Below are positions 9,972 to 13,750 of a DNA stretch of 64,000 nt, one piece after another; the stretch's first letter is position 1; every line of letters starts with the position of its first letter. The notes beneath the pieces are model-generated. The model saw nothing but the letters and a program-made list of their open reading frames with translations, was not told the origin of the DNA and searched no databases. This DNA is from Bacteroidales bacterium (lineage in GTDB: Bacteria; Bacteroidota; Bacteroidia; Bacteroidales; WCHB1-69), in assembly GCA_017540505.1 (NCBI GenBank), contig JAFYAW010000030.1, forward strand, positions 179,040-243,039. The letters run 5' to 3'. The position numbers and the translations under genes were made by a program.

Positions 9972-12900
9972 TGGTTTCCAATTTTTATCTCATCAATCAT
10001 AATCCATGTTTTTTCCCCCGCCGCGGCGTGCCATGCGGGTAATTTCCCCACCGGCTCGGCCTCGATGCGGATGTATTTGGCATCCTTGCTTGGAATCTTG
10101 TGGCGCAGGATGCAGACACGTGGCTTGCTGTTGGCCTCCAACGTTGGGTTGAAGGGCAGCGCGACCTCCTCGGGCTTGCTGAACTTCTTGCCGTTCGTGG
10201 AATACGACACGGTCACCTTCTGCGGCATAAAGACCCACTGAGAGGGGTGGTGGGCGAAACTGAGAGTGACGGTCAGAGAATCGGGAGTGTAGTCACGACC
10301 ATTGAAAAACCATTCGCCTGTGGAGCATTTCACGGTCATCGGTGTCCCAAAATAACCGACCCAACCCTCACGGTAATTGGCAGGGTTGCCAATTTTTTGG
10401 TCCATAAGTATAGTGTCAGCCGCCTTGTTGTACGGTTCTGTAGGTTTGCTGTTTATTGTATAGGAAGGAGCCTTTCCTATTTTTTTTGCCCAGTTGATGT
10501 CGCGGCTGAATAACTGTTCCATTTCTTTGGTTTTATTAACAAAGAAATCCTCGAAAAGGGCATTCTCGCCAACTTGTAAAAGAAGTTGTATTTCAGTAAC
10601 GAGTCCAATCTTTACTAAATCACGGTTAGCGATTCCTGGTCCGCAGGTGGCCGTACCCAAACCTGACTGAGACTTATCAATGTTTAAAGTATAGTATCCT
10701 TTGCGCTGCAGTTCGTTGATATGTTTTGCTTGCTCAATATTTTCATCATCGTAAGGGTATATGCTGAATTGGCAAAGATTGTCCCCTTCCCACCACCAAT
10801 CCCAAAGACGGGCGGAAAGCATTCGCTGGTGTTCTTTGTTGAAGAGCGAAACGTAGCGTGTCTCCATCCTGTTGCCTGCTGCCTGCGGACGCACGTAAAG
10901 GTGGAACAGGTCATCCGTGGGAGCTTCGTAATGTCCAACAAATCCACACGCTTTGCGATCAGGGTAAGTCTCTTGCGCATAGCCTACCCACTCGGTTGTC
11001 ACTAATTCGTCCGACACCTTCATCTGAATACCCGCTTTGGGCAACGAAGGAACCCAGTCGCTTTTGATGATCTCATACATGATCCGAATATCGCCGCTGG
11101 GCTTTACTTCGTAGATCTCGTACACGCTGAAAACATGCTCTCCGTTTTCGTTTTCCGCTATCCGATATATTGTAAGGAAAAAATCATCCCTGTTATTATG
11201 CAAATCCATATCTTTCAATGTCCACGTGAGATTGTCCAGCCCAATCCTGCGCCAGAGCAGTTCTCCATGACCATCCACGCGGTCGTTGTCGGTGGGCGGC
11301 CGCCAGAAATTGAGCCGCGGACCTTCAATCACAACGGGTTTCCCATCTTTCTTGATGGTGGAGATATATCCATCCTTGTCAAACACGATTTCCATCTTCC
11401 CGACGTTGACCATCAGCGTAGCACCTTCCCAATGATACTCCACGCTGTTGGTGAAGAAACCGAAGTTTGCACCTTGCGGTTTGCGCTTCGGCACGGGCAC
11501 CTTGAACTGCTCGTAGGCGACGAGACTACTGCCAGAAGGAGAATCTAATTGCCACTGTTGGAGGTTCTGCCTTTTAGTAGATAACGTGAAATCCAACATC
11601 ACATCCTGGCCTGGCGACACCGTGTCCAAGTCTCGTATTATCTCCATAAATTGTTGAGGAACGGTAAAATACCCCGTGTCGTGTGGAGCAAGAGTTATGG
11701 GAATTGGTCGCAGGTGGCCCTTGAGGGGTCTGGCAAGAAATTTATCAGGATGCACCGACCATTCGTGCGCAATGTCTGGACGCAACATACAAGCCAGTGA
11801 ATATTCTTCCAAGTTGCTGAAATCAAAGCGGTTGATAATGCGGAACTTCAATGAATCCCAATCCACGACCTCAATCTTGATGGGCTGATACACTTTCCGC
11901 ACCTCGGCCAGCTGCGGGTGAGGTTTCCGGTCGGGACCCACCAAGCCGTTGATGCAGAAGTTGCCGTCGGAGGGCATGTTCTCCCCGAAGTCGCCACCAT
12001 AGGCGAAATACTCATTGCCCTGAGCGTCCTTCGCCAAAAGTCCCTGATCCACCCAGTCCCAGATGCAGCCGCCCTGCAGTTGCGGGTACTTGTAGATAGT
12101 GTCCCAGTAGTTGGAGAGACCGCCGCAGCTGTTGCCCATCGCGTGCGCGTACTCGCACATAATGTACGGACGTTCTTGTGGCTTTTGGGCGTATTTGGAA
12201 AGGTAATCCACCGAGGGGTACATAATCGTAACAATGTCGGTGTTGCGGTCGTAGAGGGCGCGCTCATATTGGATAGGGCGGGTGCTGTCCTTCGCCTTCA
12301 GCCAGTCGTAGGCCGCCTCGTAACAGATGCCGTTGCCCGACTCATTGCCTAACGACCACGAGATGATGCACGGGTGGTTCTTGTCGCGCTCGTACATATT
12401 GCGGGTGCGCGCCACCGTAGCCTCCTTGAAGTCAGCACGCTTTGCCAACGACTTCTCCCCGTAGCCCTGCGCGTGCGATTCGGCATTGGCCTCATCGATG
12501 ACGTATAGGCCATAAATATCGCACAGATAGTAAAACTCCGGCGAGTTGGGATAATGACTGGTGCGTATCGTGTTGATGTTGTTGGCCTTCATCAGCAGGA
12601 TGTCCTGTTTCATGCGCTCTCTTGAGACCACATGTCCCGTTTTCGGATCGTGCTCGTGGCGATTTACCCCGCGGATGGTCACCGGCACGCCATTTACCAA
12701 CAGTTGGCCGTTCTCAAGGCGGATGTTGCGGAAACCGATGGGGATGGCCGCATCGTCAAGGGTGTTTCCTTTTTTGTCCTCCAATGAAATCCAAAGGTAG
12801 TGCAAATACGGGTGTTCCGCCGTCCAGGTTTGCACATCAGGGATGGTAAAATGGAAATGGAGGGTGTCGGTTGCGTGCGTCTGTAGAGACGTGCCATGGC

Positions 12901-13750
12901 GCGTCTCTACAATAGTGTCGTGAAATTTGTCACGTAGAGACGCAATGCATTGCGTCTCTACAACATTATCCGTCAAATTTTCAATCACCACCTCCACATC
13001 CAAAACTCCGTTCTTATACGTGGAATCCAAATCCGCCACCACCTTGTAATCCAAAATATGCGTTTTGGGTTGGGCGTAGAGAGTGATTTCGCGCTCGATG
13101 CCGCTCAGCCGCCAGAAATCCTGGCACTCGAAATAGGAACCGTCGCTCCATTTGAAGACCTGCAGGGCAATCAGGTTGCGCTCCCCGAACTTCACAAATT
13201 GGGTAATGTCGAACTCGGAGTTGGTCTTGGCATCCTCGCTGTAGCCCACAAACTCGCCGTTCGCCCAAAGGTAGAAGCAGGATTTCGCGCCCCCGATGTT
13301 GATAATCACCTGCTTGTCCGCCCATGTTTTGTCGATGTCCACCCATCTGCGGTAGCTGCCCACAGCGTTTCCTTTTACGGGCACTTTCGGCAACTGGCTG
13401 TTGTCGAAGTCGTTGGTAGTGTTCACGTAGACGGGTACGCCATACCATCCTTGATGCAGTTCCCAATTGCTAGGAATGAATTCGACCATCCAGCCTTTGC
13501 TTTCGTCATAATCTGTACGGAAAAAATCTGTAGGTCGTTCATCAGCATTGGGTACATAGTTGAAGGCCATCCATTCTATTCTCTTGAAATAAGGATTGTC
13601 ATCGGTGAAACCGTTGTTTTGCGGGATATTGGCCCGTGGATAGAGCTTGTTGACCTCGAACACGGCGGGGTCCTGCCACTCGGTGAAGGTCTGTGCGGAG
13701 AGACCGGGGGCGGTGCATAATATGATAAGGTATAGGAGCGCTTTTTTCAT
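9968..13750 (-). CDS. Exported glycoside hydrolase family 2 beta-galactosidase (LacZ-like) with C-terminal binding domain
   Basis: 1260 residues. The signal peptide (1-19, ending GLSAQ) marks export. GH2 domains follow in order: sugar-binding jelly roll (about 30-230), Ig-like domain (about 240-340), TIM barrel (about 345-640) with acid/base Glu470 in SLGNESGNG and nucleophile Glu533 in [11 protein letters not shown], a further sandwich and the Bgal_small_N-type domain (about 790-1060). The last 150 residues form an F5/8-like module. Residues 264-290, inside the Ig-like domain, are encoded by two copies of a 28-bp palindrome in the same frame. The LRR gene overlaps its stop. Substrate is a beta-galactoside, probably from a complex glycan. 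Confidence 0.9.
12883..12910. repeat. 28-bp palindromic element, copy 1, inside the GH2 gene
   Basis: Plus strand starts GTAGAGACGTGCC and ends CGCGTCTCTAC; the two halves pair apart from one T/G position each side. Read on the minus strand it encodes VETRHGTSL (residues 281-289). It starts 51 bp (17 codons) from copy 2, so both are in one frame. Confidence 0.85.
12934..12961. repeat. 28-bp palindromic element, copy 2, inside the GH2 gene
   Basis: A perfect palindrome with half-site GTAGAGACGCAATG. In the GH2 frame it encodes VETQCIASL (residues 264-272). Nearly identical sequence recurs between genes at 22513-22540, so this is a dispersed element rather than a gene-specific motif. Confidence 0.9.

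Follow-up and report, generated by a model that had tools for sequence, protein, structure and literature searches.

How do related short palindromes come to lie twice, and in a single reading frame, within the gene of a metabolic enzyme? The question is raised by a stretch of 64,000 nucleotides (hereafter the window) from a Bacteroidales bacterium (GenBank assembly GCA_017540505.1, contig JAFYAW010000030.1, positions 179,040 to 243,039), whose gene for a GH2 beta-galactosidase carries two 28-bp palindromes. We suggest that they very probably belong to the dispersed, non-autonomous repetitive extragenic palindromes (REPs) with a GTAG/CTAC foot at each end, the "double-foot" REPs tied to TnpAREP subclass 2.4. 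The accessible text of Quentin et al. (2018, PMC6006769) assigns double-foot REPs to this subclass of TnpAREP (RAYT) proteins, which are HUH Y1 enzymes. The features concerned are the following.

9968..13750, minus strand: GH2 beta-galactosidase coding sequence, 1260 residues, host of both in-frame palindromes (open reading frame and Pfam)
12883..12910, no strand: probable 28-bp double-foot REP GTAGAGACGTGCCATGGCGCGTCTCTAC, 13 of 14 pairs, coding for VETRHGTSL (residues 281-289)
12934..12961, no strand: probable 28-bp double-foot REP GTAGAGACGCAATGCATTGCGTCTCTAC, 14 of 14 pairs, coding for VETQCIASL (residues 264-272)
12870..12975, minus strand: mRNA stretch with both GH2 palindromes as predicted hairpins (RNA folding against shuffles)
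22513..22540, no strand: third copy in the window, intergenic, two arm mismatches (orthologous-site comparison)

The GH2 protein matches Pfam families PF02837, PF00703, PF02836 and PF02929. As the first-pass annotation of the window had it, the two palindromes start 51 bp apart and share one frame on the minus strand, in which translation gives VETxxxxSL both times; one is perfect and the other contains a single mispair. The annotation had also placed the encoded segments in the Ig-like domain, away from the catalytic Glu470 and Glu533. This agrees with the Pfam assignment, where PF00703 spans residues 230-341 and includes both segments, and the two glutamates are found at these positions. The half-site occurs six times in the window against 0.24 expected, and none of 100 shuffles reaches six.

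A dispersed family with constant arms and variable cores

The first-pass reading depended on further copies in the genome, inside or outside genes, and such copies are present. The genome to which the window belongs holds 36 copies with perfect 9-bp arms (none in a reversed control) and 63 if up to three mismatches are allowed (one in the reversed control). A search of 40 genomes of the genus (one genome per species, own included) found the pattern GTAGRGRCG-N10-CGYCYCTAC in every one, at 2-254 copies each, with a reversed control of 0. Beyond the genus, the exact 28-mer GTAGAGACGCAATGCATTGCGTCTCTAC is present in at least 116 stretches of named genomes; among the matches listed are many Bacteroidota, Planctomycetaceae, Candidatus Kuenenia, Fibrimonadales, Chitinispirillia, Desulfamplus and Wallbacteria. 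A search of plasmids with the palindrome returned short partial matches only.

The arms of the family are constant and its cores variable, and the two halves of the core are nevertheless still complementary. In 45 distinct 28-mers from loci of the genus, 80% of core pairs match, compared with 38% after shuffling (maximum 50% in 1000 shuffles), and 16 of the 45 have a fully palindromic core. Both ends are paired, the 5´ GTAG foot with the 3´ CTAC foot. Some palindromes lie inside a larger repeat (L034:2466, L042:2473 and L043:2466, with flanks tgttattc ... atacgg; L003:1501, with cgttatcc ... atacggta). In named genomes, the flanks can themselves be inverted repeats, so that the hairpin extends to some 48 bp or more (L107:434, L120:2701, L124:5231, L129:5987, L163:182).

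Copies inside genes

Fifty-seven copies of the own genome, located in the fetched stretches and defined by at most three mismatches and a core of 8-14 bases, were surveyed; two of them (C13:429, C36:53852) are doubtful members. Twelve copies fall within 10 open reading frames (ORFs), as judged from open frames, Pfam and orthologues, the other 45 being without individual annotation. Their hosts are GH2 and a beta-ketoacyl-synthase-like ORF (two copies each), GH97, a Sir2-like protein (Pfam score 23.3 bits against a cut-off of 24), a macrodomain protein, Flavodoxin_4, two Fib_succ_major/Por_Secre_tail proteins, a TPR membrane protein and Vsr. Translation gives VET....SL for ten of these copies and RD....VST for the other two; none uses the third frame, which contains TAG. 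Another copy, at C2:32164, forms the C-terminus of what appears to be a membrane protein. In other genomes, the exact 28-mer also occurs within long open frames, for example in ORFs matching valyl-tRNA synthetase, PriA, HsdR, histidine kinase and pullulanase. Altogether 19 of 123 exact copies are flanked in both directions by 50 or more open codons, our definition of a possible gene; 5 of the 9 such cases scanned lack any Pfam match.

Palindromes in transcribed genes could also be conserved RNA hairpins, selected for regulation of their host genes through mRNA stability or attenuation. The GH2 copies do fold strongly: the stretch 12870..12975 reaches -41.9 kcal/mol (z -5.2), and none of 200 shuffles is equally stable. 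The host genes are, however, unrelated, congeners hold heptamer-like repeats or other hairpins in the same loops, and an Rfam search of window positions 12000-14000 gave no match, so that we consider selection for such an RNA highly improbable.

Two observations concern the beta-ketoacyl-synthase-like ORF. Its palindromes (L002; C4:10580 and C4:10631) are likewise 51 bp apart, there as a result of tandem duplication of a 51-bp unit, which the GH2 pair does not resemble. Further, the two halves flanking the palindrome linker of this 612-residue ORF (G000:C4:10011-11846) are separate ORFs in G004:C51 and G032:C118. The repeat stretch may therefore have joined two genes.

An occupied segment in GH2

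The first-pass annotation had suggested that residues 264-290 might be a loop extension, and in GH2 this did not hold in so simple a form. Aligned over the same stretch, the own segment measures 120 residues compared with 124-133 in palindrome-free congeners (L055, L063, L064, L066, L070, L073, L076), and structures 3dec and 3bga, once trimmed to the same ends, have about 119. The own segment being no longer than those of palindrome-free congeners, we reject a net insertion: the palindromes occupy the segment without extending it. They lie in a hypervariable stretch of the Ig-like domain.

The GH2 region could be read, at least partly, at 24 congener loci. An intact or near-intact palindrome is found in seven (L058, L061, L062, L065, L072, L075, L080), a decayed one, as judged by eye, in another seven (L057, L059, L060, L067, L068, L069, L083), and none is visible in ten (L055, L056, L063, L064, L066, L070, L071, L073, L074, L076). 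The annotation had seen a danger to its reading in close homologues with the same residues and no palindrome. Similar residues do occur, as VEMQCIASLQ in L075 and VETKCNTFLH in L068 and L083, and these three carry decayed copies, so that the reading is not refuted on this ground. The palindromes of this region belong to at least two families, GTAGAGACG... and GTAGGGGCGAATAATTATTCGCCCCTAC, the latter coding for VGANNYSPL. In the genus, this second family lies both in genes and between them (L058:2329, L062:2329, L200:1451, L204:2312), and some congeners have an extra palindrome site near the N-terminus of GH2 (L065:5096, L067:1637, L063:1622).

An empty site in the Sir2-like gene

A clean, true insertion is demonstrated in the Sir2-like gene only. 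Its site is filled in the own genome and in G024 (L201) and empty in L202, L204, L205, L213, L217, L218 and L220 (L213 and L220 represent one genome; L206 and L209 were unreadable). Between the own gene and L202, whose flanks are 98.7% identical, the net gain is 33 bp, composed of the 28 bp and a 5-bp repeat (TGAAC/CGAAC in own, TGAAC/TGAAT in L201). Thus, 11 codons were gained and the frame was kept.

Core exchange and inversion at orthologous sites

Many other sites are filled in more than one species. Among 29 orthologous filled pairs, which are not independent of each other, 9-10 of 10 core bases are shared in 17, 6-8 in five and 1-3 in seven. For closer comparison, 16 pairs of an own copy and that of a relative were picked by hand, with both flanks aligned and both copies of about 28 bp, excluding palindrome-free rows and those with another gap. 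Their cores differ at 36 of 160 positions where 12.8 differences are expected from the flanks; their arms differ at 20 of 288. Five pairs have identical cores, five match better when one core is inverted, three are exchanged or hybrid, and three show 1-3 differences. The extreme case is C27, where own and G019 cores differ at 9 of 10 positions between flanks 99 and 96% identical; the other exchanged or hybrid cores, C45:201552 and C9:2363, each differ from G018 at 5 of 10. At the C9:2363 site, G019 has a heptamer-like repeat in place of the palindrome. The palindrome is missing from C30:28842 in G018 and from C40:48808 and C45:140823 in G019, and some sites contain other sequence. Shared filled sites indicate that a good part of them predates the species splits, with some cores turning over and some sites coming or going.

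The third copy of the window illustrates this variation, its sequence being identical at the orthologous site of G019 and different in the core in G018. The first-pass annotation had put it between bcd and etfB. Its intergenic position at 22513-22540 stands: one ORF ends at 22494 and another, with MNIIVTIKQVPNT near its start, lies on the other side. Judged from their sequences, the two ORFs are putatively acyl-CoA-dehydrogenase-like and EtfB-like.

The core of the ketoacyl-synthase linker differs in most species that have the palindrome. In Vsr, the loop following GCFWHGH exceeds that of E. coli Vsr by 13 residues in the own protein. Classified by eye at 30 loci, this loop holds a palindrome in seven and most often, in 17, a heptamer-like repeat; two loci have a different hairpin there, one has other sequence and three have nothing. 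The heptamer-like tandem repeats (a label also given by eye; TACAATG, AGTTAGT, GGGAATA and CAATTTT types) are in frame where other species carry the palindrome, both in the Vsr loop (L226-L245, part of L252) and in the macrodomain protein (L202, L204, L206, L207, L217, L218).

We tentatively suggest, with somewhat less than even confidence, that certain protein loops of the genus act as long-lived landing pads for very short DNA repeats, which serve there as exchangeable cassettes. The loops in question would be those of GH2, Vsr, the ketoacyl-synthase-like, TPR membrane and macrodomain proteins and GH97, where the core or its inverse varies by species; for three of these loops (Vsr, GH97 and the macrodomain protein), a third species holds a heptamer-like repeat.

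Cores which change and yet stay palindromic would equally be expected if the palindromes were not mobile at present, and if template switching at quasi-palindromes both made them and kept them perfect where they stand, their cores representing drift copied from arm to arm. The five of 16 pairs that match better inverted are also what strand switching at a hairpin would give. Such a process is hard to reconcile with the same exact 28-mer across phyla, with the precise insertion in the Sir2-like gene, and with the C27 core, almost wholly different between nearly identical flanks; we regard it as quite unlikely.

The link to transposases

The loci chosen for holding the 28-mer, at least 116 in number, contain 11 TnpAREP-like ORFs. 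Exact copies, 11 in all, lie inside ten of them, and the remaining ORF has one no more than 300 bp away; the share of ORFs with a copy is inflated by the way the loci were chosen. ORFs were run from stop to stop, and copies near their ends (L084, L166) may fall outside the true gene. Seven of the 11 come from Bacteroidota among the matches listed (L084, L091, L108, L120, L125, L127, L155), the others being L166, L171, L172 and L181. All seven ORFs tested hit the NCBIfam model REP_Tyr_transpos with E values between 1e-13 and 1e-16, each under its 80-bit cut-off. In seven ORFs, an exact copy separates NHFH from the YI..NP motif, which reads YIxNNP in six and YICDNP in L171. Eleven of 123 copies of the 28-mer are within such small genes, by an uncomputed estimate probably far above chance placement. 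Among congeners, a copy precedes two of three YIQNNP-type ORFs, at 242 and 212 bp upstream; the third is without one. A TnpAREP would most likely be what moves the palindromes in this genome, an assignment less firm than that of the family itself.

Several results weigh against this proposal. Firstly, the own genome has four PF01797 genes, and no copy comes within 1.4 kb of any of them; 33 Y1 loci (four own and 29 from congeners) contain only five copies, none less than 500 bp from the Y1 domain. This Pfam-based test is underpowered in the own genome, since Pfam at E 1e-3 missed all seven TnpAREP-like ORFs tested. Secondly, IS200-type Y1 enzymes are not known to make a target duplication, with which the 5-bp repeat of the Sir2-like site conflicts. 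Among 185 pooled copies, there are no perfect 5-bp flank repeats (about 0.2 expected) and a weak, unexplained excess of similarity at 3-4 bp (for own copies 0.39 against 0.28 at 3 bp). Thirdly, in half of the 16 hand-picked pairs (five identical, three with 1-3 differences), the core has changed no more than the flanks predict; core exchange is therefore not universal. As to the own enzyme, tblastn with four TnpAREP proteins at E 1e-3 gave no match in the window and 257,290 bases of partly overlapping own loci, of a genome of 2.5 Mb. Across 40 genomes, palindrome and Y1 gene numbers correlate (Spearman 0.59); given the stronger correlation of palindromes with genome size (0.69) and the drop to 0.39 per Mb, we attach no weight to this.

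The 5-bp repeat of the Sir2-like site is the argument for a different mover, a DDE transposase acting on a very short element resembling miniature inverted-repeat transposable elements (MITEs) and duplicating 5 bp of its target: at this clean site TGAAC on one side of the 28 bp is paired with CGAAC in own and TGAAT in L201 on the other. The pooled copies argue against target-site duplication as a general trait, and with a single 5-bp case we do not class the family with MITEs, which combine inverted repeats with target-site duplication at most copies. The repeat may be peculiar to the Sir2-like event or may have been lost from older copies. Together with the copies within TnpAREP-like ORFs, this makes a DDE enzyme unlikely in our view, weighed without a systematic search for a larger element having these ends. 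We note besides that Y1-type transposase ORFs of the genus (L376-L378) contain in-frame DASSV peptide repeats near the N-terminus.

Relation to known repeats

The accessible text of Quentin et al. (PMC6006769) describes double-foot REPs as long hairpins with 5' GT[AG]G and 3' C[TC]AC, present in Bacteroidetes, Cyanobacteria and various phyla, and our palindromes share these features. It also reports in-frame insertions within tnpAREP, generally between HuH and Y; we find the same, only outside the genus of the window. Unlike in that account, copies here also lie within metabolic and repair genes, and no cognate tnpA was found in the genome of the window by our searches (Pfam insensitive, tblastn partial). 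To its picture we add that cores are exchanged and inverted at orthologous sites, and that the palindromes alternate with heptamer-like repeats.

The GTAG-tagged REPs of Di Nocera et al. (2013, PMC3733652), as far as the accessible text describes them, are likewise short and dispersed, and some lie wholly within ORFs, including replication and repair genes. Their tag is unpaired and at one end, whereas here both ends pair; where that text names Bacteroidetes, it does so in connection with CGTC and not with GTAG repeats. Rickettsia palindromic elements (RPEs), to which the first-pass annotation had likened the GH2 copies, are also dispersed palindromes in frame within functional genes, according to the parts of PMC3733652 and PMC6649704 available. 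The likeness extends to dispersal and frame and not to membership. RPEs of R. conorii have CGTC ends, in contrast to GTAG/CTAC at both ends in another sequence and another host; structure and TnpAREP-like ORF context match double-foot REPs, and hence we do not regard the palindromes as RPEs. Nor do they form REPINs, doublets of two inverted REPs: the unit is one 28-bp palindrome and close pairs are few (GH2, C4).

The small dispersed repeats of Nostoc (Elhai et al. 2008) are said to be very short and mobile, with compensatory changes, and often near heptamer repeats. They are cyanobacterial, and the likeness is one of general description.

Nunvar et al. (2013, PMC3686654), in the accessible text, report orthologous RAYT genes that are flanked by different REP classes, a "REP orthoswitch" on whose cause that text only speculates. 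Their switch takes place at the RAYT gene, whereas the changes described here occur at dispersed sites, several of them inside unrelated genes. In the open-licence literature, we found no report of core exchange or inversion at orthologous coding sites or of heptamer-like alternation, and a search for the literal half-sites returned, among the matches listed, subjects unrelated by title. The family and its in-frame habit are thus already known; core exchange, inversion and heptamer alternation are apparently new.

One neighbouring feature of the window belongs here. Upstream of the GH2 start, at 13840-14030, lies a hairpin-like repeat of the CCCCGCAC/CCCCACAC ... GTGTGGGG type, similar to sequence adjoining the palindromes at C12:16623 and C22:78871.

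A possible mode of movement and its meaning

We propose that copies insert around the genome through a TnpAREP-type HUH nuclease acting on the single-stranded hairpin. Arms and feet would be kept by virtue of being recognised, with cores free to vary while they still pair. Copies landing in genes would survive only if read in one of the two open frames, and at points where some 9-11 extra or altered residues do the protein no harm; the in-frame copies would then be survivors of selection. Many sites would outlast species splits, and some cores would be remodelled by inversion or exchange, possibly passing through hairpin or cruciform DNA. Such changes suggest re-copying or replacement at occupied sites, either by the nuclease or by template switching in replication.

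In this genus, the REPs largely keep their positions and partly exchange their cores; having closely related species and one or more clean empty sites, it offers a natural record from which insertion, inversion and replacement can be measured. It indicates that mostly non-coding mobile DNA can supply peptide segments of enzymes, as in the Ig-like domain of GH2 and the Vsr loop adjoining the FWHGH motif. If the landing-pad reading is true, REP turnover would be an ongoing source of such segments, through replacement at occupied sites and not through new insertion.

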